Shown here: positions 3,342-45,198 of the stretch, piece by piece | Position numbering within the stretch: position 1 is the stretch's first letter | How the letters are laid out: every line of letters starts with the position of its first letter | Origin: Acidimicrobiia bacterium | Lineage (GTDB): Bacteria > Actinomycetota > Acidimicrobiia > Acidimicrobiales > Acidimicrobilacustridaceae | Direction: 5' to 3' | Assembly: GCA_020832495.1 (NCBI GenBank) | Contig: JAFIEP010000049.1 | Location: 1 to 50,207 of the forward strand | DNA: 50,207 bases | Program-made: the position numbers and the translations under genes | The notes under the pieces: model-generated | The model's input: only the letters and a program-made list of their open reading frames with translations | Databases searched by the model: none | Told to the model about the DNA's origin: nothing

Positions 3342-3357
3342 GGTTTCGGGGCACAAA

Positions 3358-5041: not shown

Positions 5042-5043
5042 GC

Positions 5044-6652: not shown

Positions 6653-6873
6653 CACACAAGGCTACGGCGGTCGGATGCCGAACGCCGCTTCGCCCCTTCC
6701 AGGGAACTGACACAAGTTGTGGTGCTCTATCGGTCAGTTTCTTGTAGCAGAAGCTCGGCAGCCCTTCTCGTGCAACGGAACCCCCGCTATGTTCGGTGCC
6801 CGCAGCGCCCTGTTCGCCGCCTCGCTCGGTCCCGTCGGCACCGGCCGCCCACTGGACCGACCGAGGAGCCCAC

Positions 6874-7797: not shown

Positions 7798-7873
7798 GGC
7801 GACGTGAGGCACTCCACGCGCCCTCAACTCGCACCAGAACGGCAGCACCGCGCATCGCCAACGGCGATGCCCC

Positions 7874-10296: not shown

Positions 10297-10321
10297 GTGA
10301 GTTCCTCCAAGTGGTCGCCGG

Positions 10322-10777
10322 TCACCCGCAACGCGAGCACGAACCGACGAGGTCGAGACGATGGTGTTCCGCCGTGAAGCCGGTGCGGGCCGTCACCCGC
10401 TTGAAGGCCCGCTCCAGCGAGGCTTCCAGCTGCGGAGAGATGGTGAAGTCCTCCACCCGCCCGCACTGCGAGCAGATGAGGTGATGGTGGTGCCCCGTCA
10501 GATCCTCGGCCAGCTCGTAGCGGGCGTACTCGTCGTCGGTGACGATCCGACGGACGACCCCGCAGCTGTCGAGTACCGAGAGGTTCCGGTAGGCGGATGA
10601 CTGCGCCAGTCGGGGATCGCGTTCGAGGATCTCGGCGATGGTCAGCGGGCGTTCGGTGAGTTCGAGTACCTCGACGAGGGCTCGCCGATTCGAGGTGTAG
10701 CGCTGACCATCGCCCCGGAGGCGCTTGGCCACGGTGAGGTGAAGGTCGGACGGCGGAGCGAGCTGTCGTCGGGCCAT
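10322..10777 (-). CDS. Fur-family transcriptional regulator
   Basis: 151 aa. The winged helix occupies residues 1-80 (RALVEVLELTERPLTIAEIL, SSAYRNLSVLDSCGVV). The metal-binding half starts with the HHHH tract near residue 90, followed by CSQC and, at the very C-terminus, CSRC. These two CxxC pairs form the structural Zn site of the family. Fur-type proteins sense Fe, Zn, Mn, Ni or peroxide; the subtype cannot be fixed here. The gene heads an operon with two serine hydrolases, which are not usual metal-homeostasis genes. The promoter is readable: -35 TTCTCA (10812-10807), 17-bp spacer, -10 TAGGGT (10789-10784), then 6 nt to the ATG, so the mRNA is probably leaderless. A direct repeat overlaps the -35. 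Confidence 0.92.
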   Translation of the reverse strand: MARRQLAPPSDLHLTVAKRLRGDGQRYTSNRRALVEVLELTERPLTIAEILERDPRLAQSSAYRNLSVLDSCGVVRRIVTDDEYARYELAEDLTGHHHHLICSQCGRVEDFTISPQLEASLERAFKRVTARTGFTAEHHRLDLVGSCSRCG

Positions 10778-10783
10778 GCGGCG

Positions 10784-10823
10784 ACCCTAGCCGTTGCGCA
10801 CCTGAGTGAGAACCAATGAGAAC
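10784..10823 (-). promoter_or_regulatory. Fur-gene promoter with overlapping direct repeat
   Basis: TGAGAAC occurs twice on the plus strand (10807-10813 and 10817-10823), 10 bp apart and thus on one face of the helix. The first copy is the -35 (TTCTCA read on minus). The -10 TAGGGT is at 10789-10784, with a spacer of 17. The arrangement fits autoregulation, but the repeat does not match a standard Fur or Zur palindrome. Confidence 0.5.
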
Positions 10824-10902
10824 TCGGCCCACGCCAACTGGCCAATCGTTGCGGCAGACACGAAGCACCGCCCACCCAGGGGGTTCGGCCCGACAGCGTG
10901 CT

Positions 10903-10920
10903 CTTGACCGGTCGGTCAAG
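10903..10920. promoter_or_regulatory. Perfect palindrome, probable TetR-type operator
   Basis: CTTGACCGGTCGGTCAAG has perfect 8-bp arms around a 2-bp centre. It sits immediately upstream of the -10-like TAGGCT (10922-10927), which is 6 nt before the ATG at 10934. Size, symmetry and the GACC/GGTC half-sites are typical of TetR-family operators, and a tetR gene lies 1.7 kb downstream. The pairing of site and regulator is inferred. Confidence 0.65.
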
Positions 10921-10933
10921 TTAGGCTCCCGCC

Positions 10934-11932
10934 ATGACCACCGTCCCGCCCGTCGCGGGTACCGACGCTCCGGAGCAGTCGACGACCCGACACGTCGACA
11001 CCGCGACGCCGCCCCCGATCGCACCCACCGACCGCTCGGTCGAAGGGGCTCGACGGCCCGACCGCAGCCGTTGGGTCAGCTCCGGGGGACTTCACCTGGC
11101 CGTCTACGAGTGGGGCGAGCCCGACGCTCCCGTGCTCTTCATGGCCCACGGTGGCTTCGACTTCGTCGGCACCTTCGACGTGTTCGCTCCGCTCCTGGCT
11201 GATGCCGGGTGGCGCTGCGTGGCCTGGGATCAGCGCGGCCACGGCTGCTCCGAGCACGCCGTGCTCTACAACTGGGCGGCGGACACACGCGACGGGCTGG
11301 TGGTGCTCGAGCACACCACCGACGAGCCAGCGGTCCTCCTGGGCCACTCGAAGGGCGGGGGCCTGATGATGGACCTGGCGCACGCTGCCCCTCATCGTGT
11401 CCGCAAGCTGGTCAACCTCGACGGGCTGCCGTCGCGCAACAACTGGCCCGACCTGGCCGACACGGAGCGCACCAAGATGCTGGCCGGCGAGCTGACGGGT
11501 TGGTTGGACCGTCGCCGTACCGTCTCCACCGCGCAGCGGCGGCCGGGCACCATTGCGGAGCTGGCGGAGCGGCGCCAGCAGATGAACCCCCGCCTCTCAC
11601 TCGACTGGCTCGAGTACCTGGTCACCATCGGCGGCTTCGAGTCCGAGGACGGGTGGCGGTGGCGCATCGATCCCAGTCTCCGCTTCGGGGGCTTCGGACC
11701 GTGGCGGCCCGAGTGGTCGATGCAACGACTGCCCGGCATCGGTGTGCCCGTGCTGGGGGTGCTCGGCCTGGTGCAGGAGGTCATGGGGTGGGGCACCCGA
11801 CCCGAGGACGTGCTACCGAACCTTCCACCGGAGGGTCGCTTCGAGGCGTTCGAGGACACCGGCCACTTCCTCCACATCGAGCAACCCCACCGCACGGCTG
11901 AGCTCGTGCTCGAGTTCCTGGGACGGCCCTGA
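10934..11932 (+). CDS. Alpha/beta-fold hydrolase
   Basis: 332 aa. After about 45 low-complexity residues comes a canonical alpha/beta-hydrolase core: the oxyanion segment MAHGGFDF (about 70-77), DQRGHGCS, and the nucleophile elbow LLGHSKGGG with Ser139. The catalytic His is probably in EDTGHFLHIEQP near residue 313; the acidic member cannot be assigned with certainty. It is likely a cytoplasmic esterase, lactonase or C-C hydrolase; the substrate is unknown. No Shine-Dalgarno is present. TAGGCT ends 6 nt before the ATG, consistent with a leaderless mRNA under the palindrome at 10903-10920. The next gene begins one base after this stop, so the two are a transcription unit. Confidence 0.88.
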   Translation: MTTVPPVAGTDAPEQSTTRHVDTATPPPIAPTDRSVEGARRPDRSRWVSSGGLHLAVYEWGEPDAPVLFMAHGGFDFVGTFDVFAPLLADAGWRCVAWDQRGHGCSEHAVLYNWAADTRDGLVVLEHTTDEPAVLLGHSKGGGLMMDLAHAAPHRVRKLVNLDGLPSRNNWPDLADTERTKMLAGELTGWLDRRRTVSTAQRRPGTIAELAERRQQMNPRLSLDWLEYLVTIGGFESEDGWRWRIDPSLRFGGFGPWRPEWSMQRLPGIGVPVLGVLGLVQEVMGWGTRPEDVLPNLPPEGRFEAFEDTGHFLHIEQPHRTAELVLEFLGRP

Positions 11933-11933
11933 G

Positions 11934-12611
11934 ATGCCGACGACGACCGACGCCCCCACGTACCTCACCCACGGCAAAGCCCGCCTGGCGCTGCACCAAC
12001 TCCGACTGGGCAGCGACCCGGCCGTCCACCCGCTCTTGTTCCTGCACGGCCTCGGGGAACAGGCGCCGAAGCTGACCCCGAGGGTCGTCAACTCGTGGCC
12101 AGGGCCGATCCACGCGCTCGATTTCACCGGTCACGGCCACTCCACCGTGCCGACCGGCGGCGGCTACACCGCAGAGATCCTCATGGGCGACGTCGACATC
12201 ACCCTCGCCCACCTCGGGCCGTGCACCATCGTCGGCCGCGGCCTCGGGGCCTACGTCGGCCTGCTGATCGCCGGCGGACGGCCCATGCTGGTGCGCGGCG
12301 CCGTGCTCACCGACGGTCCCGGCCTGGTGGGTGGCGGCATCCGGCCCACCTCCGCCTATATCCCGCCCGTACCCACCGGTGCGGTGCGTACACCCGATCC
12401 CATGGCACTGGCCGAACTCAGCCGTGACGTGCGTCCACCCGACTACGTGAGCGAGTACGTCCGCTTGGCGGTGCAGCAATCCGACCTCGACGATCCCATT
12501 GCCATGTGCACTGTGGTCCGACCCGAGTGGGCCGCTGCGGTGGCCACCATGCCCGGCGTGCTCGACACCACCGTGACCGATGCCCTCGAGCGCTACGCCG
12601 TGGTGCGCTGA
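11934..12611 (+). CDS. Short alpha/beta-hydrolase-like protein lacking the nucleophile Ser
   Basis: 225 aa from the ATG at 11934, one base after the preceding stop. The sequence follows an alpha/beta-hydrolase pattern: PLLFLHGLGEQ (oxyanion loop), DFTGHGHST, then the nucleophile elbow TIVGRGLGAYVG. At the elbow the expected G-x-S-x-G reads G-R-G-L-G, so residue 103 is Gly where Ser should be. The usual C-terminal strand with the catalytic His is also missing and the protein is 50-100 residues shorter than active relatives. It is therefore probably non-catalytic, perhaps a partner of the active hydrolase encoded just upstream. The frame is intact, so this looks like a maintained pseudoenzyme rather than decay. 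Confidence 0.8.
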   Translation: MPTTTDAPTYLTHGKARLALHQLRLGSDPAVHPLLFLHGLGEQAPKLTPRVVNSWPGPIHALDFTGHGHSTVPTGGGYTAEILMGDVDITLAHLGPCTIVGRGLGAYVGLLIAGGRPMLVRGAVLTDGPGLVGGGIRPTSAYIPPVPTGAVRTPDPMALAELSRDVRPPDYVSEYVRLAVQQSDLDDPIAMCTVVRPEWAAAVATMPGVLDTTVTDALERYAVVR

Positions 12612-12638
12612 CCCGACGGCGCCGGTCAGGCCCGCCGG

Positions 12639-13229
12639 TCAGGCGCGCAGGCCGTTGACCACGGTGGTCACCACCGAGTCCACCAGCAGCTCGGTGCCGG
12701 CCTCGTCGAAGCCGAACCCCATGAGCAGCACGTCGGCCGCGCCGTGGGTGGCGGTCCACAGGGTGAGCGACGCGATCAGAGGGTCGACATCACGCAACAG
12801 ACCCGCAGCGATGGCCGCCTCGACGGCCTCGCGGGGACGGTCGAACGCCCGCGTGGCTGCCGGCAGCTCCTCACCGGTCGGGGAGGAGAGCGCCAGCTCG
12901 GGAGGGAAGATGAACATCGTGCGGAACAGTTCGGGGTTGGCCAGGGCGTAGCGGATGTAGATGCGGCTGTAAGCGGCGATCCGCTCCAGCGGGTCGGGAT
13001 CGTCGACCACCTCGAACTGTTCGACCAGCTCGTCGAATGCCGACTCGGCCACCGCCCGCAGGAGGTCACGCTTGTCGGCCATGTAGGCGTACAGCGCCGG
13101 CGCCGTCACCCCCAGCTCCCGCGCCACCCGTCGCAACGACAGCTTGTCGAGCCCGTCGGCGATGATCAGCGTGCGGGTGGCCGCCAGCACGGCCTCACGG
13201 GTGAGCGGGTCACGCACGGTGCTCGTCAT
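12639..13229 (-). CDS. TetR-family transcriptional regulator
   Basis: 196 aa from the ATG at 13229; longer in-frame starts upstream would add a sequence with no regulator character. The N-terminal HTH is clear: LTREAVLAATRTLIIADGLDKLSLRRVARELGVTAPALYAYMADKRDLL at about residues 9-57. The rest is a helical ligand-binding domain with TetR_C-like features (MFIFPPELAL, LIASLTLWTATHGAADVLL). TACGCT lies 6 nt before the ATG, so it may be leaderless. It is convergent with the two alpha/beta-hydrolase genes and divergent from the carotenoid-oxygenase gene. Palindromes occur in both neighbouring promoters. Ligand unknown. Confidence 0.93.
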   Translation of the reverse strand: MTSTVRDPLTREAVLAATRTLIIADGLDKLSLRRVARELGVTAPALYAYMADKRDLLRAVAESAFDELVEQFEVVDDPDPLERIAAYSRIYIRYALANPELFRTMFIFPPELALSSPTGEELPAATRAFDRPREAVEAAIAAGLLRDVDPLIASLTLWTATHGAADVLLMGFGFDEAGTELLVDSVVTTVVNGLRA

Positions 13230-32910: not shown

Positions 32911-34068
32911 ATGGCCACCGCCACCCAACCGGAGTCTCGCCCCACCCTTGCCGGACCCGCCGCCGTCGGGCTGGGTCCCGAGCGGTGGGTGGGCGTCGAC
33001 CACCCCGACCGCGCCGGCGCCACCGACGGCCGCGATCCGGCCGAGCCGCTCGTCGGCCAGGGCGGCATGGTGCCCGATCCGTCGCTGCTCCCCGACACCC
33101 TTCCCACCGACCGGCTGAGTCCGACCGGGCGCCCCCTGCCAGCACTGCGCAACGAGCTGCGCCGCGTCCCCGACCTGCGCAACGCCGCCAACGTCGCCTC
33201 GGTGTGGCTGCAGTCCTTCGGGCTCATCGCCCTCGCCTGTTGGCTCACCCCGGAGCTCCCCCTCGCTGCGGCACTGGCCGTGTGGGCCGTGACCTTCCTC
33301 CTCATGGGACGGGCCTTTGCGTGCTACGCCATCTTGGGCCACGAAGCCGCCCACCGGTTGCTGTTCTCCAACAAGAAACTGAACGACCTCGTCGGCGGCT
33401 GGGGCGTTGCGTACCCGGCGTTCGTGCCACTCGCTGCCTACCGCCGCGCACACATGGCCCACCACAAGGACGAGTTCGGGCCCCACGAGCCCGACCTGGC
33501 CTTCTACAACGGCTACCCGGTGGAGCCGGCCACCCTGCGACGCCGTCTGTGGCGTGATGCCCGTGGCTCGTCGGGGTGGAAGAACCTACGGGCCCTGCTG
33601 CGAGCACTGAAGAGCGAGTCGTCCCGTCCGTTCGCGCTGCCCATCGCCGTGTCACAGCTCGGCGTGGTGGCCGTGCTCCTGGCCATCGGCGGGTGGCAGC
33701 GCTGGTGGCTCTACCCGCTGCTGTGGCTGGCGCCGTGGATGACGGTGTGGCGGGTCATCAACCGGCTGCGTTCCATCGGGGAGCACGGCGGTCTCATGCG
33801 TTCGAACGACCGTCGACTCACCACCCACGTGGTCCGCCAGAACCTGTGGGCCCGCTTCTGGATGGTGCCGTTCAACACGGGCTGGCATCTCGCCCACCAC
33901 GTGGATGCCGGTGTCCCCTTCCAACACCTGCCGCTCCTGCACGCCGAACTGGTGGACGCCGGCTGGGTGACCGAGGAGCTCGAGTACCCCAACTACCGGG
34001 CGCTGTGGCGAGCGATGGCCTCTGCCCCTCAACCGGCGTCGTCGGGTGTGACGTCACCGTCGTCGTGA
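32911..34068 (+). CDS. Membrane fatty-acid desaturase family protein
   Basis: 385 aa from the ATG at 32911, with a GAGAGGA Shine-Dalgarno at 32896-32902. Three histidine boxes of a di-iron membrane desaturase are present: HEAAH (144-148), HMAHH (181-185) and HLAHH (about 326-330). Hydrophobic segments lie between 95 and 170 and around 240-280. The first ~80 residues are soluble and Pro-rich. The family introduces double bonds or hydroxyls into lipid chains or related substrates using O2; a carotenoid or hydroxylase-type substrate cannot be excluded. It is divergent from a PaaX-type regulator. Its 3' end overlaps the convergent larC gene by 40 bp. Confidence 0.88.
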   Translation: MATATQPESRPTLAGPAAVGLGPERWVGVDHPDRAGATDGRDPAEPLVGQGGMVPDPSLLPDTLPTDRLSPTGRPLPALRNELRRVPDLRNAANVASVWLQSFGLIALACWLTPELPLAAALAVWAVTFLLMGRAFACYAILGHEAAHRLLFSNKKLNDLVGGWGVAYPAFVPLAAYRRAHMAHHKDEFGPHEPDLAFYNGYPVEPATLRRRLWRDARGSSGWKNLRALLRALKSESSRPFALPIAVSQLGVVAVLLAIGGWQRWWLYPLLWLAPWMTVWRVINRLRSIGEHGGLMRSNDRRLTTHVVRQNLWARFWMVPFNTGWHLAHHVDAGVPFQHLPLLHAELVDAGWVTEELEYPNYRALWRAMASAPQPASSGVTSPSS

Positions 34069-35339
34069 CCAAGATGATGGTCGTGCGAGTGGTCGTGACC
34101 ACCGCCCTCGTCGACCGTTCCCGGCGTCGGTAGCCGGCGCACAGCGGCGGGCTCGGCACCCCCGTCGTCGCCACGCCACGCTGCCTCGGCCAAGAACACC
34201 ACCTCGCGCAGGGGACGTCCCGTGCGTCGAGCGACCGCCACGGCGTCGTCGTGTTCCACCTTCACTCGCCCACGCCCCACCTTCAGTCGCACCGCCAGCC
34301 CGTCGACCGTCACGTGCTCCGCCGACCGGGCGAACGGCCACCGCTCGAGTGTCTGGGCCCGCACCCCCATCGAACCGGTCTCCGTCCGTAACACCTCGAC
34401 GAGGTCGGCCACCAGGGCAGGCTCGCACAGGGCGCTCACCGTGTGGGCGGGTCGGCCCTTCTTCATGAGGATGGGACTGAGCCAGGCGTCGTGGGCGCCG
34501 GCCGACAGCAGCTCCTCGACGGCGTGGGCCAGCGTTTCGCCGGTGACGTCGTCGACGTTCACCTCCACCAGCACCACCGGTTGGCCCCGCTCGGCGGCGG
34601 CGGCCCGTTCGCCCACCACCACCTGCAGCAGGTTGGGACGCTCGCCCAGCTCGGCAGTGCCGGCGCCGAACCCGACGTCGCGCACCACCATGTCGGGCAT
34701 CGGCCCCCAGTCGGTGGCCAACGCAGCAGCCAGCGCAGCGCCTGTGGGCGTGGTCAGCTCCACGTTGAGATCCAGCGAGTACGTGGGCGCACCCCGCAGC
34801 AACTCCGTCACCGCCGGGACGGGGATGGGCATGAGCCCGTGCGCGGCGCGCACCGTGCCGGTGCCGTTGGCCACCGGGGAGAACACGAGCTCGTCGATAC
34901 CCAGCACCTCCATGGCAGCGCACGAGCCCACCACGTCGATGATGGCGTCGATGCCACCCACCTCGTGGAAGTGGACCTGCGAGGGAGGTCGACGGTGCAG
35001 GTGACCCTCGGCCACCGCCAACGCCTCGAAGGTGGCCAGAGCCCGGCGTCGGACCCGCTCGGGCAGGCGCGCCTCCTCCACCAACCCCACGATGTGCGAG
35101 GCCGTGCGCACCACGGTGGTCGCCTCGGCCACCACGTGGATCTTGGTGCCGCCGATGCCGGTGCGCAGCACGGGCTCGGCCTCGAGCGCCCAGCCTGACA
35201 CCGGCAACCGCTCGCACATGCCGCGCACCTCGTCGAGGCCGGCGCCGGCGTCCACCAGCGCGCCGAGCGTCATGTCCCCGGCAATGCCGGAGAAGCAGTG
35301 GAACCACGCCACGGTGGTCGAACGTTCCTGTGGACTCAC
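34029..35339 (-). CDS. larC: Nickel insertion protein of nickel-pincer cofactor synthesis
   Basis: 436 aa from the GTG at 35339. LarC inserts nickel into the pyridinium bis-thiocarboxylate precursor to make the nickel-pincer nucleotide cofactor of lactate racemase and related enzymes. Family segments are FHCFSGIAGDMTLGALVDAG at the N-terminus, VHFHEVGGIDAIIDVVGS, LTTPTGAALAAALA, VEVNVDDVTGETLAHAVEELL and LMKKGRPAHTVSALC. The C-terminus ends in a His/Asp tail (HDHSHDHHLGHDD), probably nickel-binding. It is one uninterrupted frame, unlike the Lactobacillus gene, which needs a programmed frameshift. The start overlaps the larB stop by four bases. Confidence 0.9.
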   Translation of the reverse strand: MSPQERSTTVAWFHCFSGIAGDMTLGALVDAGAGLDEVRGMCERLPVSGWALEAEPVLRTGIGGTKIHVVAEATTVVRTASHIVGLVEEARLPERVRRRALATFEALAVAEGHLHRRPPSQVHFHEVGGIDAIIDVVGSCAAMEVLGIDELVFSPVANGTGTVRAAHGLMPIPVPAVTELLRGAPTYSLDLNVELTTPTGAALAAALATDWGPMPDMVVRDVGFGAGTAELGERPNLLQVVVGERAAAAERGQPVVLVEVNVDDVTGETLAHAVEELLSAGAHDAWLSPILMKKGRPAHTVSALCEPALVADLVEVLRTETGSMGVRAQTLERWPFARSAEHVTVDGLAVRLKVGRGRVKVEHDDAVAVARRTGRPLREVVFLAEAAWRGDDGGAEPAAVRRLPTPGTVDEGGGHDHSHDHHLGHDDGDVTPDDAG

Positions 35340-36145
35340 GTGGCGTCTCCCCGACCGTCGCCACCACGTCGACGGCCGGCCAGCGACAGCATCCGCAACG
35401 CAGCGGTGGCTGCACCGAAGCCGTTGTCGATACCCACCACCGTGACCCCCGCCGCGCACGACGACGTCATGGCCAGCAGCGCCGTCACTCCTTCGAGCGA
35501 ACTGCCATAGCCCGTGCTGGTGGGCACGGCCACCACCGGCGCGGAGGTGAGTCCACCGGCCACACTGGCCAGCGCACCTTCCATCCCGGCGACCACCACC
35601 ACCACGTCGGCTTCCTGGAGTCGGCGCACCTCGGGGAGAAGGCGATGCAGCCCGGCCACCCCGACGTCGACCAGCACATCGGCCACCACCCCCATCGCAC
35701 CCAGGACGGCCACGGCCTCCTCGGCCACCGGCAGGTCGGAGGTTCCCGCAGCGCACACCAGCACCCGGTCGTCGACCCGCGGCGCTGCGGGACGCCACAC
35801 CAAGGTGGCGGTCGGCTGCCCACTGTGGCACGGGCCGTCGTGTGCCACGCCACCGGGATGGGCGGCGAACGCCGCCTCCTGGTGCTCGATCCCCGCCCGG
35901 CTCACCACGACGGGGGCCTCCGACGCGGCCAGGAGACGACCGACGGCGGTCGCCACGTGCGTCGGGGTCTTGCCGGGGGCGTACACGGTCTCGGCCATGC
36001 CCGTGCGGAGGCTCCGGTGATGATCGAGGCGCAGCCCGTCCCCGACGTCGTAGGGGAGCGCCCTCAGGCGCGCCACCGCCTCGTCGGCATCGACCGTGCC
36101 GTCGGCCACCGCCGCCACGAGGTTCCGGATGGCTTGTTCGTCCAC
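35336..36145 (-). CDS. larB: Pyridinium-3,5-biscarboxylic acid mononucleotide synthase
   Basis: 269 aa from the GTG at 36145; no strong Shine-Dalgarno is visible. LarB carboxylates and hydrolyses nicotinic acid adenine dinucleotide in the first step of nickel-pincer cofactor synthesis. The N-terminal ~90 residues are LarB-specific (LPYDVGDGLRLDHHRSLRTGMAETVYAPGKTPTH). The C-terminal ~150 residues resemble PurE: VLVCAAGTSDLPVAEEA, VVVAGMEGALASVAGGLTSAPVVAVPTSTGYG and the terminal GIDNGFGAA. larE and an apo-enzyme such as larA are not in the window, so the sulfur-transfer step and the client must be encoded elsewhere. Confidence 0.9.
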   Translation of the reverse strand: MDEQAIRNLVAAVADGTVDADEAVARLRALPYDVGDGLRLDHHRSLRTGMAETVYAPGKTPTHVATAVGRLLAASEAPVVVSRAGIEHQEAAFAAHPGGVAHDGPCHSGQPTATLVWRPAAPRVDDRVLVCAAGTSDLPVAEEAVAVLGAMGVVADVLVDVGVAGLHRLLPEVRRLQEADVVVVVAGMEGALASVAGGLTSAPVVAVPTSTGYGSSLEGVTALLAMTSSCAAGVTVVGIDNGFGAATAALRMLSLAGRRRGGDGRGDAT

Positions 36146-36264
36146 CGTTCCATCATCGCCGCCCACACGTCCGGCCACCAGCCCGTCCCACCGATGACGC
36201 CGACCGATGGCGCCAACCGGTCGCGATCGCCCGACCGGAGCGGTGGCGCGTATCCTGCGACGTC

Positions 36265-37215
36265 GTGCCCCCACCGAGCGCCCCGCCCCACGCCACCACC
36301 ATTGCCTATCTCGGTCCTCCGGGTACCTTCACCGAACAGGCACTGCTCACCGTGCCCGACCTCTCGGCGCTCGAGCAACTTCCTCTGCCCACCATTCCCG
36401 ACGTGCTGCTGGCCACCGACGACGGGAGGGTCGACATCGGCTTCGTGGCCATCGAGAACGCCATCGAGGGCTCGGTCAACGTGACGCTCGACATGCTGGC
36501 CTTCGAGACGGAACTGTTCATCCAGCGCGAAGTCGTCATGCCGGTCTCGCTGCACCTGTTGGCCCACGAGGGTGTTCGTCTCGATGACGTCACCACCGTG
36601 GTGTCGTTCCCCCACGCCAGCGCCCAGTGCCGCCGCTTCCTGGCCGAGCACCTGCCCGGCGTCGCTACCCGCGCCGCCAACTCCACCGCCGAGGCAGCGC
36701 GGGTGCTGGCCGAGGGGGCCGACGCCCACACAGCGGTCATTGCCACGTCACGAGCGGCCGAGCTCTACGACCTGCGCACGGTGGCCGCCGAGATCGAGGA
36801 CCATCCCGAGAATGCCACCCGCTTCGTGGCCGTCGCCCGGGACCACATCCCGCCACCCACCGGCCACGACAAGACCTCGCTGCTCGTGTTCCAACGGGCG
36901 GACGCTCCTGGGTCGCTGCTCTCCATCCTCCAGGAGTTCGCCGCCCGCTCCATCAACCTCACCAAGCTCGAGTCCCGGCCCACCAAGCGGGGCCTGGGTG
37001 ACTACTGCTTCCTCATCGACCTCGAGGGTCACCTCGACGACAAGGTGGTGGCCGACGCGCTGCGGTCGCTCAAGCACAAGCAGGCCGGCGTGAAGCTCCT
37101 CGGGTCCTACCCCGCAGCGGGTGACGCCGGTGAGCAACGCCGAGCCGAATCCGATGTGGCGCTGGCCGGCGCCGAGGCGTGGCTGGCCGAGTTGCGCCAA
37201 CGCATCGGACGCTGA
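36265..37215 (+). CDS. pheA: Prephenate dehydratase
   Basis: 316 aa from the GTG at 36265. It converts prephenate to phenylpyruvate in phenylalanine synthesis. Catalytic domain: IAYLGPPGTFTEQALL at the start, GFVAIENAIEGSVNVTLD, the VVSFPHASAQCRRFL segment and ENATRFVAVARD, whose TRF motif is catalytic. The ACT domain follows (KTSLLVFQRADAPGSLLSILQEFAARSINLTKLESRPTK), which carries allosteric phenylalanine inhibition. It is a single-function enzyme without a chorismate mutase domain, as usual in actinobacteria. TATCCT ends 8 nt before the GTG and there is no Shine-Dalgarno. A weak hairpin (37282-37308) lies after the stop. Confidence 0.95.
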   Translation: MPPPSAPPHATTIAYLGPPGTFTEQALLTVPDLSALEQLPLPTIPDVLLATDDGRVDIGFVAIENAIEGSVNVTLDMLAFETELFIQREVVMPVSLHLLAHEGVRLDDVTTVVSFPHASAQCRRFLAEHLPGVATRAANSTAEAARVLAEGADAHTAVIATSRAAELYDLRTVAAEIEDHPENATRFVAVARDHIPPPTGHDKTSLLVFQRADAPGSLLSILQEFAARSINLTKLESRPTKRGLGDYCFLIDLEGHLDDKVVADALRSLKHKQAGVKLLGSYPAAGDAGEQRRAESDVALAGAEAWLAELRQRIGR

Positions 37216-37395
37216 GCACACGCCGGCGGCAACTGCCGCGCTCTGCCGCAGGTCACGGACGGACGGTAGGGTCGTGACGGTGTCGCGGCCGCTGTCGTTG
37301 TCCGCGACCCCACTGTGCTCGGTGCGGTAACGACACGTCCCCACCGGGTGCGGAAGTCAGCAAACGACCCACCCCCACGGGTCGACACAGGAGGC

Positions 37396-39485
37396 ATGGT
37401 GAGCTACGGGCTGGGCATTGATCTGGGCACCACCTACACCGCCGCGGCCGTGGCCCGGCAGGGGTCAGCGGAGATCTTCCAGCTCGGCGACCGGGCCCCG
37501 TCGTGCCGTCGGTCGTCCTGTTGCGCGCCGACGGCGACATCTTGGTCGGCGACGCCGCCAATCGCCGGGCGGTGAGCGAACCGGATCGGGTCGCACGCGA
37601 GTTCAAGCGCCGTCTCGGTGACACCACGCCGCTGTTCCTCGGTGGGGCCCCGTGGTCGGCCGAAGCGCTGATGGGCCGTCTCCTCACCTGGGTGGTGGCG
37701 CAGGTCAGTGCTCGGGAGGGTGGCGGGCCCGAACGGGTGGCGCTGACCCGTCCGGCCAACTGGGGCGAGTACAAGCTCGACCTGCTCACCAACGCCGCCC
37801 GCATGGCCGACCTCGACCAGGACGTGCTCATCATCAGCGAGCCGGAGGCGGCAGCCATCTACTACGCCACCACCGAGAAGGTGGAGCCGGGGGAGGTGGT
37901 GGCCGTCTACGACCTCGGGGGTGGCACGTTCGACGCCACCGTGCTGCGCCGCACCGAATCCGGTTTCGATCTCCTCGGCACGCCTGAGGGCATCGAGCGG
38001 CTCGGTGGCATCGACTTCGACGCCGCAGTGTTCGGCCACGTACAACGCTCGCTCGGCGGAGCAATCGAACAACTCGACGAGGCCGACCCTGCTGCGCTCA
38101 GCGCAGTGGCCCGACTGCGTGCCGACTGCCAGGACGCCAAGGAAGGCTTGTCGTCGGACACCGACGCCGTCGTCCCGGTCCTGCTCCCCAACGTGCAGAC
38201 CGAGGTGCGCATCACCCGCGACGAGTTCGAGGGAATGATCCGCCCGACGCTCGAGGACTCCATCGGCGCCATGCGCCGAGCCCTGCGCTCGGCGGAGGTG
38301 GACACCGCTGACGTGAGTCGGGTCCTGCTGGTCGGCGGATCGTCGCGCATCCCGCTGGTGGCCGAGATGGTGGGCGCCGAGCTGGGACGACCGGTGGCCG
38401 TCGACGCCCACCCGAAGCACGCCGTTGCACTGGGTGCCGCCCTGGCCGCCACCGGTGACGCCAGCGCGCCCGCCGCACCGGTGGTGGCCGCGCACGAAGG
38501 GCCTGGCGACGCCGCCACACCCGGGCCGGGTGACGGGGTGACGTCCCACGGCAACCGATCTGAGTCCGACAGCCCCGGAGTTGGTGCAGGAGGCATCGCC
38601 GCCGCGGCGGCTGCCGGCGCCGCCGTCGGTGCCAGCGCCGCCGTCGCCACTGGTGCGGCCGACGCCACTGGTGCGGGCGCTGTCAGCCCGTCAACGTCGC
38701 CGGCCGAGCAACCGACCGTGCAGGTCCCGACCGAGCAGGCCGCCAGCGATGCCGGTGCACCTGGCGCCGGGCCGCCGGCCGGGCCACCTCCCGACGGCGG
38801 AACCCCGGGCGCTGGTGCGCTGCCGCCTGCTACGCCGACGGGTGGCGGCACCAGCGGATCGGGGCCGGCCGATCCCTCAGAGGCCAAGGGCGGCCGAGGT
38901 CCTCTCATCGGCATCCTGGCCGCCATCGTGGTCGTCGTGGTGGTGGCGGTGGCCTGGCTGGCACTGTCGGGCGACAGCGACGACGACCTGATCGCCGCGT
39001 CGGACACGGAGACGCCGGACACCACCGAGGCCCCGGCAGCGGACGACGAGGCACCGACGATGACCGAGGCGCCGGACGCAACGACCCCCGGGGACGACAC
39101 CGACGGCACCGAGGGTGACACCGAGGAGCCGGCCATCCCCTGCGATATCGACCTCGACGAGGGCATCTGCATCACCGACGTCGAGTGGGACGGCGACCGA
39201 CTCGTGGTCAGCTACGACACCGAACTCGGACTCACCCTGGCGCCCGACCCCGGGTCGCTGGCCGAGGGGACGGTCCACGCCCACTTCTTCTTCAACACCG
39301 TGCCCGCCCAGCAGGCAGGCACCCCTGGGGCGGGGCCATGGGAGATCTGGGAAGCCACCCCGGTGTTCGACGTGTGGACGGCCGAGGAGGTACCGCCCGG
39401 CGCCACACAGGTGTGCGTCCTCGTGGCTGACTTCGACCACTCGGTACGCGCCGACAGTGGCAACTGCGCCCCGATCCCCTCCTGA
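37396..39485 (+). pseudogene. Membrane-anchored Hsp70-family protein, frameshifted near its start
   Basis: The N-terminal ATPase motif GIDLGTTYTAAAV is in the frame that opens at 37396 (ATG; GTG at 37399 has better spacing to AGGAGG at 37389-37394) and stops at 37575. From 37503 the rest of the protein continues in another frame. One extra C in the run CCCC at 37496-37499 would join them as DRAP-VVPSVVLLRADG, giving about 696 aa. The actin-like ATPase domain includes YDLGGGTFDATVL and LLVGGSSRIPLVAEM. The Hsp70 peptide-binding domain is absent. In its place are ~150 residues rich in Ala, Gly and Pro, one transmembrane helix (coded at about 38905-38970), an acidic stretch and a ~110-residue extracytoplasmic domain with a few cysteines. 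A sequencing error cannot be excluded. It is convergent with two dynamin-like genes. Confidence 0.85.
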
Positions 39486-39646
39486 CCCGCTCCAATCCCC
39501 GCCTGACCCGCGCCGCTACCAGCACCTGCAGCGCTACGGCCGACGCGGCCCCGATGCTGGCCCTCTGCGTGCAGCCAGGTACCCATACGGTCCCCCACAA
39601 CACGCAGTCCCTTCCACCGCCGGCCCACCGGCCCGCCCCGCTGCTC

Positions 39647-41116
39647 CTACTGCTGCTGTTGCCCGGCGGCCAGCGACATCAGCACGCCTTCGCAGCTGCG
39701 GGCCAACACCCGCGCTGCGGCCACCGCTTCCGGGGTGGCCATCGGACTCTCGGCTCGCCGTTGCCAGTGACCGAGGGCTGCGGCGGCCGCCGCCTGCACC
39801 TCGGCGGGCGCAGCGTCGGGTGCCAGGCCCAACCGCGTCGCCGCCACGTCCGATGACACCAGCCGCTCGGCGACGGCGACGTCGTCGGCGCGCAGCGGCA
39901 CCGCCCCGCTGCGCAGCGCGTTCAGCAGCCGCAACTCGGCCAACTCGTGGGCTCCGGCCACCAGTTCCTCGAACGATCTGACGACCGCCGGATCGTTGAC
40001 GGTGCCCGCAGCGATCACGGTCTCGAGCACTCCCAGGGCCGAGCGCGCCTTGAGCACGTCGGAGCGGTGCCCGAAGCGACTGGACAGCACCGACCGCAGG
40101 TCGTCGAGTCCGCTACGACGCACCAACTCATGGGCCAAAGTCGTGGCGCTCGTCGCCACTCCGGTGCGGAGGAGCTCGACGCCGAGGCGCACACCGAACA
40201 GGCCCAAGCGGTCGACCAGATGGGTCCGCACCATCGGCGTCGGATCCCCGTTGAGCGAGTCGTCGACCAAGCGGTCAACCGACAGGAGCAGTGCCGCCCT
40301 CCGTTCGTCGTCGAGCAGGGCAATCTGCCCGAGGGCCCGGTACTCGTCCTCGAGGAGCGTCGCCCCGGCTTGCGCAACCAACCCGGCCACCGGGACCACG
40401 AGCTGGCACAGCCGACGGACCCGCGGATCCTCGTTGTAACGGGCGGCGATGCGCCCAGCGCTCTCGAGGGCGTCGAGGCGAGCCACCCCCACCTCGTCGG
40501 CCCGAGACAGCACGCCCACCGCGTTCACCGGAGTGGCGTGGGCCAGGTCGTCGTCGTGGAACGCCTCGAGGAACCGGACGTCGTCACCGTGCAGATGGCG
40601 GAGCAGGTAGACGACCGCGTCGGCCTCGTCGGGCGTGTCGTGGTCGGTGAGGAAGCTCACGGTCCGGTCGCTGATCTCGGCGTTCACCGAGCCGATGCCC
40701 GGTGTGTCGATGAGGGTGATCGTCTCGAGCGCCCTGGAGGGCCAGGCCACCACGATGCGCCGCACGTCGGCAGGCGAACGACCGTCGAGATCAACCTCGA
40801 GCGCCCCACCTTCACGCCGGAATCGGGCCTGGGTGACGCTGCCGTCGGTGCTCTCGAGGGTGACGCCGTAGGTGATGCCGTGGCGGTACCAGGTGACGAT
40901 GCGAGTGCATTCCCGTGCGTCGGTCGGCGCGAGTTCTTGGCCGACCAGGGCGTTGAGCAGCGTCGACTTGCCCGCCTTCACGCGCCCGGCGATGGCCAGC
41001 CGCAGCGGCTCGTCGAGGCGGCGGCGTGCCGCAGCGAGGTGCTCGGCGGTGGCCGGATCGGCACCGGCGGCAGCCGAGTCGACGAGCGCGCCGACGTGAG
41101 ACACCAGGGCGCTCAT
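39647..41116 (-). CDS. Dynamin-like GTPase, IniC-type
   Basis: 489 aa, very close to the 493 aa of mycobacterial IniC. GTPase motifs: G1 GRVKAGKST (about 43-51), a conserved Thr in ECTRIVTWY as G2, G3 DTPG (about 138-141), and a variant G4 SRAD in VGVLSRADEVG, where [NT]KxD is usual. A mostly helical stalk region follows, and a poly-Gln end (QQQQ). Bacterial dynamins polymerise on membranes and remodel or repair them. It lies 85 nt downstream of a larger dynamin gene, in the same order as iniA-iniC in mycobacteria, where the pair responds to cell-wall stress. No transmembrane helix is obvious. Assignment to the dynamin family is firm; IniC orthology is inferred from length and order. Confidence 0.88.
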   Translation of the reverse strand: MSALVSHVGALVDSAAAGADPATAEHLAAARRRLDEPLRLAIAGRVKAGKSTLLNALVGQELAPTDARECTRIVTWYRHGITYGVTLESTDGSVTQARFRREGGALEVDLDGRSPADVRRIVVAWPSRALETITLIDTPGIGSVNAEISDRTVSFLTDHDTPDEADAVVYLLRHLHGDDVRFLEAFHDDDLAHATPVNAVGVLSRADEVGVARLDALESAGRIAARYNEDPRVRRLCQLVVPVAGLVAQAGATLLEDEYRALGQIALLDDERRAALLLSVDRLVDDSLNGDPTPMVRTHLVDRLGLFGVRLGVELLRTGVATSATTLAHELVRRSGLDDLRSVLSSRFGHRSDVLKARSALGVLETVIAAGTVNDPAVVRSFEELVAGAHELAELRLLNALRSGAVPLRADDVAVAERLVSSDVAATRLGLAPDAAPAEVQAAAAAALGHWQRRAESPMATPEAVAAARVLARSCEGVLMSLAAGQQQQ

Positions 41117-41201
41117 TGCTCGACTCCCGGCCCCGTTCGCCGGCTCCGCCCACGATCCCGCTCACAGGTGCCGAGGATCCAGGGGGAGCGCCGGAGTCGG
41201 C

Positions 41202-43109
41202 TCATGGGTGCGCTCTCGGCCGGGCAGCGTCGAGCTTCGACGCCAGGTGGTCGAGCCGCGCCAGCTCGGCGGCGACATCGGCACGCCGCTGCTCGATATC
41301 GCCACCGCCCGCCGCCTTGGCCGCCGCTACCTCGGCCTGCACCTGCGCCGCCACTTCGCCGGCCAGGACACCGAGCTCGTCACGGAGGAAGCGTTGCACG
41401 CTGCGCAGCGCGTCGCGGCTCGACTTGCCCGCCGCGAAGCTGACGTCGTCGAGGTAGCGGCGACCTGCGGCCTTGGCTTGCTGCCGTTCCTGGGTGAGCT
41501 TGCGCTTGTGCTCGTCCTTCACCGCCTTGCGACCGAGTCCCAGCGCGGCACCCGCCATGATGGGCGCCGCCACACTCAACCCGATCATGCCGGCGCCCAT
41601 GGTGATCATCATCACGTAGCCGTACGAACCTTTGGCGCCGGTGAGGATCGACGCACCGGCACGGCGGGCCACACCGCCGTCGTCGGTGGCCACCTCGGGG
41701 GCGTCGACGGACACCTCGCCGAGGGCGTCGAAGGGGTCTGCCAACTCGACGGTGGGCAGCCGCGGTTCGATTCCCCCCACCCGGAACTGTTCGACGAGGT
41801 CGTCAGCCAGTTGGGCGGTGCGCTCGAGCAACACGCCGTGGTTGGCTGCCACCTCGGACGCCGCCTGGCGGGTCAGCCAGGCGGAGATCTCGTCCCACGC
41901 CTTGGCGGGCTCGATCTCGTCAATGCGCTCCTCGAGTTCCCGGCCGAGCCGACGGAACCGTTCCCGCAGGTCGTGATCCACCTCGGCGTTCAGGTCGGCA
42001 CACCCGTCGTTCAGCAGGACCTGCCAACGCGCCCCGCGCTCTTGCAGCTCGGCGGCAGCGGCGCTGGCCTCCTCGAGGCGCACCCGACGGCGTTCCGCAG
42101 CCTCGGGATCGTCGAGCACCTCGAGTTCGGCGGCGAACGGTTCGCGCAGTCGGCGAATGATCTCCGTGGCCGTGTCCGCTGCCATGGCGGCAGCTCGTGC
42201 ACCGGCGCCTGCCAGGATCTCACCGGTCAGGTGGGCGTGCAGCGTCGGGAAGCCCGACTCGTCGTTCAACGAGCGATCAACGGTGGCGGCGGCCAGGGAC
42301 CGCAGTGCGGACGACACCGCCAACACCTCGACGGCGAACCCCTCTCGGTCGAGCACCGCCTTGTCGGAGGCCACGATGGTGCGCCACGCCGGATAGAGGT
42401 CGGTCTTGGTGCTGACCACCGTCACGGTGGGGCACAGCTCGACGGCGCTGCGCAGGAAGTCGACCTCGGCGGCCGTCAGCTCCTGCGAGGTGTCGGTGAC
42501 GAGCAACACGGCGTCGGCACCGGCGAGAGCAGAGAGCGTCAGCGAGCCGTGCGCCGAGTCGAGGCCGCCAACCCCTGGGGTGTCGACCAGCACCAGCCCG
42601 TCGGCCAGCAGCTTCCGGGGAATCCCGACGTCGGCCCAGTGCACCCCGCGGCGGTTGCCCGGGTTGCCGGCCTCGGAGACCCAGTCGGCCAGGGCGGCCA
42701 CCTCGACACGGTGCTCGACCAACTCCGGAGGGTCGGCCGACTCGTCGCCGCCGGTCACCACCACGGCACCCGGCTCGGCGGCATGGCGCACCAGGATGGG
42801 CACGGCGGTGGCGATGTCGTCGTCGACCGGGCACACCTCGGCGCCGAGGAGTGCGTTCACGAGCGTGCTCTTGCCGCGCTTGAACTCACCGGCCACCACC
42901 ACCCTGATCTCGGTGTGGTCGAGGTGTGCGCGGGTGACCGACGCCCGTTCGGCCAGATCAGCCCGGTCGTAGGCCTCCGCTGCGGTGGCCACCACTCCGA
43001 GCAACTCGACGACCGGCGCACGCGGATCGAGGTGCTCCACGACCGTCGTGCCGTCGCCAGCGGCGCTGGCCGCCGCGGCGGTGCCCCGTCTCGGGCCGGC
43101 TCGGGTCAT
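41202..43109 (-). CDS. Dynamin-like GTPase, IniA-type
   Basis: 635 aa from the ATG at 43109, which overlaps the stop of the upstream gene (ATGA); IniA of mycobacteria has 640 aa. G1 is GEFKRGKST (about 73-81). The G2 Thr is in DDDIATAVPI, G3 is DTPG and G4 is TKTD. A long helical stalk follows, with a hydrophobic segment at about 515-550 (YVMMITMGAGMIGLSVAAPIMAGAALGLG) that could be the membrane paddle. The C-terminus is helical and charged (coiled-coil-like, EVAAQVQAEVAAAKAA). The expected role is membrane remodelling or protection, acting with the IniC-type partner encoded downstream. Confidence 0.88.
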   Translation of the reverse strand: MTRAGPRRGTAAAASAAGDGTTVVEHLDPRAPVVELLGVVATAAEAYDRADLAERASVTRAHLDHTEIRVVVAGEFKRGKSTLVNALLGAEVCPVDDDIATAVPILVRHAAEPGAVVVTGGDESADPPELVEHRVEVAALADWVSEAGNPGNRRGVHWADVGIPRKLLADGLVLVDTPGVGGLDSAHGSLTLSALAGADAVLLVTDTSQELTAAEVDFLRSAVELCPTVTVVSTKTDLYPAWRTIVASDKAVLDREGFAVEVLAVSSALRSLAAATVDRSLNDESGFPTLHAHLTGEILAGAGARAAAMAADTATEIIRRLREPFAAELEVLDDPEAAERRRVRLEEASAAAAELQERGARWQVLLNDGCADLNAEVDHDLRERFRRLGRELEERIDEIEPAKAWDEISAWLTRQAASEVAANHGVLLERTAQLADDLVEQFRVGGIEPRLPTVELADPFDALGEVSVDAPEVATDDGGVARRAGASILTGAKGSYGYVMMITMGAGMIGLSVAAPIMAGAALGLGRKAVKDEHKRKLTQERQQAKAAGRRYLDDVSFAAGKSSRDALRSVQRFLRDELGVLAGEVAAQVQAEVAAAKAAGGGDIEQRRADVAAELARLDHLASKLDAARPRAHP

Positions 43110-43540
43110 CGCTCGGCCTCCGGCCAACCCAGGCCGACAGCGTGCACCGCGCCGACGATCGCCTCGGCGAGGCGCTGTGGATCACCGTCGAGGCGTTCCA
43201 GCTCGGCGGGACCGAGCAGGGCGTGGACTCCCACGGCGGTGCGGGCCAACACGGCAGGGCTGCTGCGTTCGGTGGCCGCTCGGACGTCGGCGGGACGGTC
43301 ATCGAGGTGGTAGGTGAGGAACGGTACCGGCAGGTCGGCCGTGCAGGATCGCCACGACTCCTTCTCCTTGAACGTGCCGTGGGTGATGTCGCACAGCGCG
43401 CAGTGCGCCCTCCCCAAGCGGGCGCCGATCCAGTAACGCAACTCACCGCGCAGCGTGCCCTCGGCGTGGTACACGCCGATCAGTTCGGTCACGGTGGCCG
43501 CCCCGCTCACATCAGAGGTGGTCGACCCGTCGCTGTCCAC
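43106..43540 (-). CDS. Hypothetical small CxxC protein upstream of the dynamin pair
   Basis: 144 aa from the GTG at 43540. I do not recognise a named family. It starts with a Ser/Thr/Asp-rich lead, then TELIGVYHAEGTLRGELRYWIGARLG. A short motif follows, HCALCDITHG (Cys pair two residues apart), then KEKESWRSC with a third cysteine. The C-terminal half is helical. The arrangement could bind metal or be redox active, but this is a guess. Its stop overlaps the start of the IniA-type gene, so the three minus-strand genes are probably one operon. It is not IniB, which is larger and Gly/Ala-rich. Confidence 0.75.
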   Translation of the reverse strand: MDSDGSTTSDVSGAATVTELIGVYHAEGTLRGELRYWIGARLGRAHCALCDITHGTFKEKESWRSCTADLPVPFLTYHLDDRPADVRAATERSSPAVLARTAVGVHALLGPAELERLDGDPQRLAEAIVGAVHAVGLGWPEAER

Positions 43541-43628
43541 CCCACCATGGTGGCAGGCCGCCGAGGGGCCTGCGCACCCGCCCGTGCGGGGCGAGCCCCC
43601 GGCGCCCATCCGGTAGGGTCATGGGTTC

Positions 43629-43716
43629 GGAGGGATGGCAGAGCGGACGATTGCGACGGTCTTGAAAACCGTTGAGGTGCAAGCCTCCGGGGGTTCGAAT
43701 CCCCCTCCCTCCGCCA
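43629..43716 (+). tRNA. tRNA-Ser, anticodon TGA
   Basis: The acceptor stem pairs 43629-43635 with 43706-43712, followed by discriminator G and encoded CCA (43714-43716). The anticodon stem ACGGT/ACCGT holds loop CTTGAAA, anticodon TGA. A long variable arm is present. TAGGGT at 43614-43619 is a likely -10, 9 nt upstream of the mature 5' end. Confidence 0.96.
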
Positions 43717-43755
43717 CATCCACCGCTGCCGACCCCAGTGCACGAACGCTCACCG

Positions 43756-43774
43756 ACACGAACTCGATTCGTGT
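43756..43774 (+). terminator. Hairpin after tRNA-Ser(TGA)
   Basis: ACACGAA and TTCGTGT form perfect 7-bp arms around a 5-nt loop, 40 nt after the tRNA. There is no clear U-run, so terminator function is tentative. The remaining gap up to the insertion sequence shows nothing else. Confidence 0.4.
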
Positions 43775-43806
43775 TCGCGAGTCGTGCTAGCTCCATCAAC
43801 ATTAAA

Positions 43807-45198
43807 GGCTCTCCTCACCGATCCGTGGGTGGGTTTGGTGACCATCCGCGGTAGCACCCCGCCTCGTTCCTAGGTTTCCGGGCTGTCTGACGGCTCGAGA
43901 ATCCTGGGAGGAGAACGGGGTGCTGGGTATCAAGGTATGGCGTCGTCTGCTCGGCGTGTGCGATCGCACCGTCATCGAGCGGATCGAGTTCGACGAAGAC
44001 GCTGATGCGGTGGTCGCCTCGGTGCGGCCACGACGGGCCAAGAAGCAGCGCTGCGGTCGGTGCGGGCGACGAGCACCGGGCTACGACCAAGGCGAGGGCC
44101 GCCGTCGGTGGCGGTCGCTGGACCTCGGTGAGGTCCGGTCGTTCGTGGAGGCCGACGCCCCTCGGGTGAACTGCCCAGAGCACGGTCCGACGGTGATCGA
44201 GGTGCCGTGGGCCCGGCACGGCGCCGGGCACACCCGTGCCTTTGATGGCACGGTGGCGTGGCTGGCAACGCACACGTCCAAGACAGCAATCACCGAGCTG
44301 TTGCGGATCGCGTGGGCGACGGTCGGCGCGATCGTGGCCCGGGTCGTCGACGAGGCACGCGCCGAGGTTGACCCTTTCGACGCGTTGGTGCGCATCGGGA
44401 TCGACGAGATCTCCTACAAGCGTGGGCACCGCTACCTGACGGTGGTCGTTGACCATGACAGCGGCCGGTTGGTGTGGGCAGCGAAGGGCCGCGACAAGAA
44501 GACCCTCGAAGGGTTCTTCGACGCCCTCGGCGGCCAGCGGTGCGCCCAGGTCCGCCTGGTGAGCTGCGACGCGGCCGAGTGGGTTGGTGACGTCGTACGC
44601 GCCCGCTGTCCCAACGCCACGGTGTGTCTCGACGCGTTCCACCTCGTGAAGTGGGTGACCGACGCCCTCGACGAGGTACGACGCGACACCTGGAACGAAG
44701 CCCGCCGCAATGGCATGCGCACCCACGCCCGGGACCTCAAGGGCGCGCGCTACGCGCTGTGGAAGAACCCCGAAGACCTCACCGCCCGCCAGCAGGCCAA
44801 GCTCGCCTGGGTCGCCAAGGTCAACCAGCGCCTCTACCGCGCCTACCTACTCAAGGAGCAGTTCCGCCAGATCATCGCCGTCAAGGGCGTCCGGGCGATC
44901 CTGATGCTCGAGGAGTGGCTCGACTGGGCGGCACGATGTCGCATCCCTGCGTTCGTGGAACTCGGCCGACGCATCCGCAAGAACCTTGCCGGCGTCGAAG
45001 CATCACTACTCAACAACCTCTCGAACGCGCTCGTTGAATCGACCAACACGAAACTACGAGTCCTCACCAGAGTCGCCTACGGGTTCAAAGAACCCGAACA
45101 CCTCATCGCCCTCGCCCTGCTCGACCGAGGCGGCTACTGCCCGCCGCTCCCGGGCCGCTCAGCAGCGTGAACCCACCCACGGAAGCACGAGGAGAGCC
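43807..45198 (+). mobile_element. Intact ISL3-family insertion sequence with target duplications
   Basis: The element is 1392 bp. Terminal inverted repeats of about 29-31 bp (43807-43837 and 45168-45198) share GGCTCTCCTC at the tips and TCCGTGGGTGGGTT inside, separated by five mismatches. The 8-bp direct repeat ACATTAAA flanks it directly (43799-43806 and 45199-45206), which is the duplication length expected for ISL3. One transposase gene fills it. The complete ends, intact gene and perfect duplication suggest recent insertion, between tRNA-Ser(TGA) and a signalling gene. No gene is disrupted. Confidence 0.95.
43920..45170 (+). CDS. ISL3-family transposase
   Basis: 416 aa from the GTG at 43920, with Shine-Dalgarno GGGAGGAG at 43906-43913. 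The N-terminal zinc finger has the ISL3 pattern CGRCGRRAPGYDQGEGRRRW with a downstream NCPEHG. It is followed by a helix-turn-helix and the DDE domain. The first Asp lies in RIGIDEISYKRGHRYLTVV, the second in VCLDAFHLVKW, and the Glu probably in NALVESTNTKLRVL near the C-terminus, where the segment up to LIALALLDRGG is also typical of the family. Full length with no stops, so probably active. The stop codon overlaps the right inverted repeat. Confidence 0.95.
   Translation: MLGIKVWRRLLGVCDRTVIERIEFDEDADAVVASVRPRRAKKQRCGRCGRRAPGYDQGEGRRRWRSLDLGEVRSFVEADAPRVNCPEHGPTVIEVPWARHGAGHTRAFDGTVAWLATHTSKTAITELLRIAWATVGAIVARVVDEARAEVDPFDALVRIGIDEISYKRGHRYLTVVVDHDSGRLVWAAKGRDKKTLEGFFDALGGQRCAQVRLVSCDAAEWVGDVVRARCPNATVCLDAFHLVKWVTDALDEVRRDTWNEARRNGMRTHARDLKGARYALWKNPEDLTARQQAKLAWVAKVNQRLYRAYLLKEQFRQIIAVKGVRAILMLEEWLDWAARCRIPAFVELGRRIRKNLAGVEASLLNNLSNALVESTNTKLRVLTRVAYGFKEPEHLIALALLDRGGYCPPLPGRSAA

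Follow-up and report, generated by a model that had tools for sequence, protein, structure and literature searches.

Two adjacent genes for dynamin-family GTPases and a convergent gene for an Hsp70-family protein with a predicted transmembrane (TM) helix lie in one contig of an Acidimicrobiia bacterium, and a small gene for a CxxC protein overlaps one of the GTPase genes. This arrangement raises the question of which genes belong to one system and what that system might do. The stretch analyzed, hereafter the window, is one whole contig of 50,207 nt (G000:C85) from a draft genome of 4.46 Mb in 147 contigs, and the features discussed here are collected in table 1. An earlier note on this DNA had proposed an Ini-like module, related to mycobacterial IniA and IniC, with the Hsp70-like and CxxC proteins as additional parts and with no IniB homolog.

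Table 1. Positions, strands, and supporting evidence for the features of the window considered in this study
Feature	Positions	Strand	Evidence or remark
larC-like (Ni_insertion) and larB-like (AIRC) genes	34029–36166	−	Pfam; with pheA and desaturase also in G017
Hsp70-like gene, N-terminal part with phosphate-1 motif GIDLGTTYTAAAV	37396–37502	+	tblastn of the 35-aa part matches L031–L036
Hsp70-like gene, main ORF, 660 aa (Hsp70 ATPase domain, linker, TM helix, outer domain)	37503–39485	+	Pfam HSP70; tree
Predicted TM helix of Hsp70-like protein, residues 468–486 of main ORF	38904–38960	+	Hydropathy
Outer domain of Hsp70-like protein, conserved HxH...H and two Cys	39129–39485	+	Alignment of eight; AlphaFold2
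IniC-like dynamin GTPase, 489 aa	39647–41116	−	Pfam Dynamin_N; G1, G3, G4 motifs; tree
IniA-like dynamin GTPase, 635 aa	41202–43109	−	PDB 6j72, E 1e-101; tree; G1, G3, G4 motifs
144-aa CxxC gene, neighbor, judged outside the module	43106–43540	−	Absent from dynamin stretches
tRNA-Ser(TGA), neighbor marking older gene order	43629–43716	+	Same gene adjoins the CxxC gene in L223
ISL3-family transposase	43920–45170	+	All three Pfam parts; between tRNA-Ser(TGA) and PAS/GGDEF/EAL gene

The IniA-like and IniC-like genes are adjacent on the same strand with 85 nt between them, and the IniC-like and Hsp70-like genes converge at a distance of 161 nt. A search for promoters and terminators in 37200–43950 found none, which is weak evidence in DNA that is GC-rich.

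The GTPases Form an IniA/IniC Pair

The two GTPases, described in the earlier note as adjacent dynamin-family proteins of 635 and 489 aa on the minus strand, are indeed intact ORFs that match Dynamin_N (IniA-like, E 7e-22; IniC-like, E 7e-12), and a pattern search locates the G1, G3, and G4 motifs in both. That they are Ini-like is borne out by similarity and by phylogeny. The IniA-like protein matches M. smegmatis IniA (6j72) over residues 33–622 of 635 (phmmer against PDB chains; 345 bits, E 1e-101). In a GTPase tree of 56 rows, made with a quick method and carrying SH-aLRT support only, it falls within a 32-row clade that includes four mycobacterial rows (SH-aLRT 98), with L031 as its sister (99); L033–L036 lie just outside, in a 36-row clade (83), and 14 paralogs lie further out. 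The window IniC is found on the IniC branch together with the IniC of L169, a locus treated here as mycobacterial on account of the 1014-bit score of its IniA against 6j72. Neither GTPase is placed away from IniA and IniC in this tree.

The window and mycobacterial iniBAC share the order of IniA followed by IniC, and the window protein has the lipid-binding Arg-Lys of IniA, as identified by an LGRKA-K motif common to both. M. smegmatis IniA is described in PMC6715688 as a membrane fission protein that binds negatively charged lipid. The IniC-like protein matches dynamins in the GTPase part only and is 43–57% identical to 17 relatives; its predicted structure (18 sequences, pLDDT 79, pTM 0.74) gives alignments at Z 12–14 with small GTPases, mitofusins, Campylobacter DLP, and IniA. 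Tandem dynamin-like genes also occur in Campylobacter (DLP1/2) and in LeoABC, and the IniC model aligns to 5oxf_C, from these other tandem dynamins, with Z 13.3 and an rmsd of 3.2 over 231 residues; however, the window IniA is far closer to mycobacterial IniA, and the window pair is linked to an Hsp70-like gene. On the evidence of their sequences, the window GTPases are new members of the Ini family, and the IniA-like protein is genuinely related to IniA. Plasmid records contain one IniA match, in Nocardia farcinica (38%, 86% of the query), where no feature is annotated.

An Hsp70-Like Gene Accompanies IniA/IniC Pairs

The neighborhoods of other pairs support the proposal that the Hsp70-like gene is an added component of an Ini module. 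Named genomes were scanned with an alignment of seven IniA proteins, and the best 80 of 367 loci were kept, so that the set was selected by its resemblance to the window; genes were called by a codon-usage script and labeled with profiles built in this analysis. After removal of L056 and L073 (same contigs as L031 and L032) and of L060 (no IniA gene call), 77 pairs remain. The fetched stretch contains a non-DnaK Hsp70-like gene in 57 of these 77 (from the best 80 of 367), and 19 of the 20 pairs without one have less than 7 kb of flank on at least one side. Where both flanks are at least 7 kb, the gene is present at 37 of 38 pairs (again from the best 80 of 367); L078 is the only exception and has IniA, IniC, and IniR. 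The IniR-bearing ini loci of this set (L049–L128), from Pseudonocardia, Arthrobacter, Microbacterium, and others, resemble the window in their Hsp70-like protein, IniA, and IniC.

A sample of 396 genomes from the phylum gave 24 loci above 200 bits, of which 22 were fetched, the window and G042 (L033) being left out. IniC lies beside IniA in 20 of the 22 loci and an Hsp70-like gene accompanies 19 of those 20, including all 14 pairs with full flanks; the exception, L165, lacks the gene in a stretch whose upstream flank is 1.6 kb. At least one locus is common to the named and phylum sets, since L158 is the contig of L111. All six nearest relatives from the order have the Hsp70-like gene, and none carries an IniR or IniB label. 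Among control loci with unpaired dynamins, the gene is near 0 of 19 (0 of 11 with full flanks); these 19 include L177 and L178, which have an Ini-type IniA with neither IniC nor an Hsp70-like gene. Distant dynamin pairs have the gene in four of seven cases (L039, L041, L048, and L179; absent in L040, L180, and L188). Canonical DnaK genes near ini loci L165, L168, L173, and L175 (more than 85% identity to one of them) were left out of the counts. G004 has a second ini-type locus (L037; G004:C145:1–12000), outside all counts, in which the contig start truncates IniA, with IniC and two IniB-like genes following; the 10 kb beyond its iniC contain no Hsp70-like gene.

The position of the Hsp70-like gene relative to the pair was tabulated for 79 gene-called loci: upstream on the opposite strand in 42, downstream on the opposite strand in 23, upstream on the same strand in 10, and downstream on the same strand in 4. 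L158 was dropped from this count and from the 104-locus count given below because it shares the contig of L111. That four arrangements occur indicates that the link between the Hsp70-like gene and the pair has outlived rearrangements. Judged by these gene neighborhoods, the Hsp70-like gene is a genuine and little-noticed partner of IniA/IniC pairs.

Architecture of the Hsp70-Like Protein

The Pfam HSP70 match of the window protein (E 6e-45) covers profile positions 108–372 of 599, which leaves an Hsp70 ATPase domain without a substrate-binding domain. The protein thus has the ATPase domain of the DnaK/Hsp70 chaperones but, in place of a match to their substrate-binding domain, a TM helix and an outer domain. 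The main ORF contains one hydrophobic segment by hydropathy, LIGILAAIVVVVVVAVAWL, at residues 468–486, with Lys/Arg on its N side and acidic residues on its C side. An NBD tree, made with a quick method and with long branches flagged, places the window protein inside a 13-row clade of ini-linked proteins (95) and sets the Hsp70-like clade apart from canonical DnaK (99).

This design recurs among the 81 Hsp70-like proteins that are 500 aa or longer (L111 and L158 being one contig): a hydrophobic helix follows the ATPase part in 76 and is missing in 5, and the N side of the helix has more Lys/Arg in 72 of the 76. Conservation is seen in the ATPase half, and the outer part differs greatly from protein to protein: BLAST clustering of the 73 outer parts with 80 aa or more yields 61 clusters, between which distant kinship is possible, and the largest has nine members, the window included. 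The C-terminal part elsewhere contains propeller-like repeats (L035), BON (L161), FHA (L036), or WD40 (L179). In an alignment of the window outer domain with seven relatives, His50, His52, His104, Cys96, and Cys113 are invariant; a metal site in this domain (HxH...H) is only a suggestion. The domain is predicted to be all-beta (AlphaFold2, pLDDT 81, pTM 0.77). A Foldseek search with this model found no hit with E of 0.001 or below (best, 0.03), and VIA-align 2 aligned it to beta chains, FN3/Ig-like ones among them, with Z no higher than 6.7, a value within reach of common folds, so we claim no family for it.

The description of the window gene as a convergent Hsp70-family gene with a TM helix agrees with the Pfam match, the hydrophobic segment, and the 161-nt spacing; the gene is not a single frame, however, and a break that the earlier note overlooked divides it between two frames. 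The break falls about 35 codons after the start. An ATG at 37396, directly preceded by AGGAGG, shares its frame with the phosphate-1 motif, and this frame is open as far as 37575; from 37503 on the gene continues in another frame, and the phosphate-2 and adenosine motifs are in the main ORF. The main ORF aligns with relatives at 51–72% in the ATPase part. Both parts align with relatives that have them in one frame, so that the break represents either a recent mutation or an error of assembly; in a draft genome of 147 contigs a sequence error is possible, and the two are indistinguishable here. The putative Hsp70-like sensor may be dead in this assembly, or the break may be a sequence error.

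The ATPase motifs of the window gene are of the usual kind, and outside the mycobacterial family they are intact in most rows examined, whereas in mycobacterial-family copies Ser replaces the phosphate-1 Asp and the phosphate-2 motif is degenerate. From these residues, the ini-linked Hsp70-like proteins of L166, L169, L172, and other mycobacterial-family loci are possible pseudo-ATPases; some mycobacterial-family loci contain two Hsp70-like genes. L036 encodes an IniC-like protein with an N-terminal protein kinase domain (9832–12663, +; no N run in the ORF) beside an FHA-bearing Hsp70-like protein without a TM helix (6085–7842, −), a combination of domains that hints at contact between the two. 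In L179 (8073–13864, +), a distant dynamin pair is followed by an Hsp70-WD40 protein, and in L031 of G004 a 1129-aa ORF with no Pfam or NCBIfam match (3043–6432, +) lies directly ahead of the Hsp70-like gene.

IniR and IniB

The Hsp70-like gene and IniR occur together in 65 of 104 loci according to our own profiles, and 39 of these 65 have the Hsp70-like gene immediately ahead of iniR on the same strand. The spacing is −4 to 138 bp in 37 of the 39 (208 in L116 and 1484 in L123), and in four loci iniR also precedes a second Hsp70-like gene. An apparent Hsp70-IniR fusion in L072 was rejected because its 1437-aa ORF runs across a stretch of N, and adjacency alone is counted; one other Hsp70-like ORF, in L104, contains N. 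The window has in its Hsp70-like gene a counterpart to the dnaK-like gene by iniR of M. smegmatis, which one sentence in Boot et al. (2017; PMC5760070) places directly downstream of iniR. Open PMC papers, the scope of the search, yielded no other mention in print of a dnaK-like gene with iniR, and word searches for Hsp70, dnaK, or chaperone in PMC6715688, PMC13413693, and PMC4159319 found none of the terms sought.

Unlike the window, the loci L049–L128 (best 80 of 367) mostly also carry IniR and IniB-like proteins: among the 38 named pairs with full flanks, drawn from the best 80 of 367, 35 have IniR and 36 have an IniB-like gene. The corresponding numbers for the 14 full-flank phylum pairs are 12 and 13. 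A search of the whole draft genome of the window for IniR returned only fragments, the best at 38.7 bits. The IniR model NF038181, whose cutoff is 750 bits, scores 206–487 bits against five of six STAND-LuxR proteins of other loci and matches that of L058 by the LuxR part alone. Our IniB profile labels nothing in the window, and the genome-wide search gave one sub-cutoff match to NF038175, on another contig (26.3 bits against a cutoff of 40), in keeping with the claim that an IniB homolog is absent beside the pair. The window thus departs from mycobacterial iniBAC: IniB is missing beside the pair, the genome search found no IniR, and the Hsp70-like gene is convergent with iniC. NF038175 also misses the IniB-like proteins of L058 and L111, and a diverged IniB elsewhere in the genome is therefore possible. 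The sub-cutoff match, to the IniB N-terminal region, is a 182-aa ORF (G000:C102; L221 9001–9549, −) beside a universal-stress-like gene and away from ini genes.

A Candidate Envelope Sensor

IniR responds to trehalose (PMC5760070), and to our knowledge no membrane sensor is known for it. A TM Hsp70-like gene that is kept with IniA/IniC through rearrangements and is often located just before iniR is a concrete sensor candidate, and the IniR-less form of the window suggests that the Hsp70-like protein may act on the dynamins directly. The reading that we place foremost, and to which we give about an even chance, is that the window encodes a compact ini envelope-stress variant, IniR-less and apparently IniB-less, composed of IniA, IniC, and a TM Hsp70-like ATPase as sensor or regulator. 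The kinship of the GTPases, the recurrent linkage, and the build of the Hsp70-like protein are its foundation, each read from the comparisons of genes and proteins above; the membrane or envelope-stress role of the window module we infer by analogy with work on mycobacteria. We posit that the outer domain would monitor the cell envelope and that a signal would cross the TM helix to the inner Hsp70-type ATPase domain, which would then switch a partner. Where iniR is present, its product, a STAND/LuxR activator, would be this partner, and iniR often follows the Hsp70-like gene directly; in IniR-less forms such as the window, the partner would be IniA/IniC, recruited to or released from damaged membrane, and these would afterwards reshape or repair the membrane with GTP. 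Given the lost phosphate-1 Asp and the degenerate phosphate-2 motif of the mycobacterial family, an ATP-driven switch cannot be general.

We count in favor of the sensor model the linkage, the four arrangements, the position before iniR, the orientation of the TM helix, the variable outer parts, and L036. Against it we count the frame break in the window, L078, L165 and L037 (both with cut flanks), L177 and L178, the 5 of 81 proteins without a TM helix, and the degenerate mycobacterial ATPase motifs. The activation of IniR by trehalose, in whose description in the sections of PMC5760070 drawn on here a membrane sensor is not named, is counted against it as well. A broader claim, which we regard as possible but doubtful, is that a class of bacterial TM receptors built on the Hsp70 fold, with a conserved inner ATPase, one TM helix, and a variable outer domain, directly controls dynamin-like GTPases, and IniR where present, and that the window is its minimal three-gene form.

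The Hsp70-like protein could instead be an effector: its ATPase would loosen or load assemblies of IniA/IniC at the membrane, in the way that Hsc70 removes coats in eukaryotic cells, and the outer domain would be no more than an anchor. Linkage to distant dynamin pairs that have no IniR in the fetched stretch (L039, L041, L048, and L179) and to the IniR-less Ini pairs L031–L036 is consistent with such a role, as is the intact state of the ATPase motifs in most of the rows examined from outside the mycobacterial family; however, we think it rather unlikely given that the protein has no substrate-binding domain, that the outer parts are far more variable than anchoring requires, and that the gene is so frequently placed directly before iniR. 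It is unlikely, too, that the window locus is decaying, with the Hsp70-like gene a pseudogene and the pair working without it or being lost. The break near codon 35 severs the phosphate-1 motif, as decay might, but all else is intact, including the GTPase motifs and a main ORF that still aligns with relatives in the ATPase part, and the draft assembly allows for an error.

An anti-phage defense module of the LeoABC kind seems to us highly improbable. The PADLOC models LeoA and LeoBC score 64 and 61 bits against the IniA protein, and variable outer domains could suit variable targets; nevertheless, the match to M. smegmatis IniA is much stronger at 345 bits (from a different search, so that the order alone is comparable), and the surroundings in the window are housekeeping-like, with dnaX-, recR-, pheA-, and larBC-like genes. 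It is also at odds with PMC5760070, in which iniBAC with iniR is a cell-wall stress system of mycobacteria.

The CxxC Gene and Its Older Neighborhood

The 144-aa CxxC ORF overlaps the 635-aa IniA-like gene by 4 nt, as had been reported, and its proposed membership in the module fails. No match to it was found at E 1e-3 in the 133 fetched dynamin stretches; of the two added genes expected to co-occur with relatives of the dynamin pair, the Hsp70-like gene is kept and the CxxC gene is missing. The protein contains HCALC (family motif AHCALCDITHG) and matches nothing in Pfam (E 0.001), NCBIfam, or PADLOC (E 1). Of 198 genomes from the wider group, 47 carry its family, small genomes among them and many with no IniA match, and in G041 and G004 the gene is on another contig than IniA, among other genes. 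G017, which belongs to the same family as the window genome, has the CxxC gene and no IniA match in the genome search; it retains the order PaaX-desaturase-larC-larB-pheA, with the CxxC gene and tRNA-Ser(TGA) about 2.3 kb beyond pheA and the CxxC gene downstream of pheA. In G010, the CxxC gene lies about 2.2 kb from pheA-larB-larC. Based on this distribution and on the G017 and G010 neighborhoods, we regard the CxxC gene as a bystander and reject it as part of the module, and the gene order of these two genomes indicates that the block 37396–43109 sits within an older neighborhood. In the 18 stretches around CxxC copies (L222–L239), pheA is beside the CxxC gene in two (L223 and L229) and the surroundings differ in the other 16. 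The overlap of the CxxC and IniA-like genes may be a by-product.
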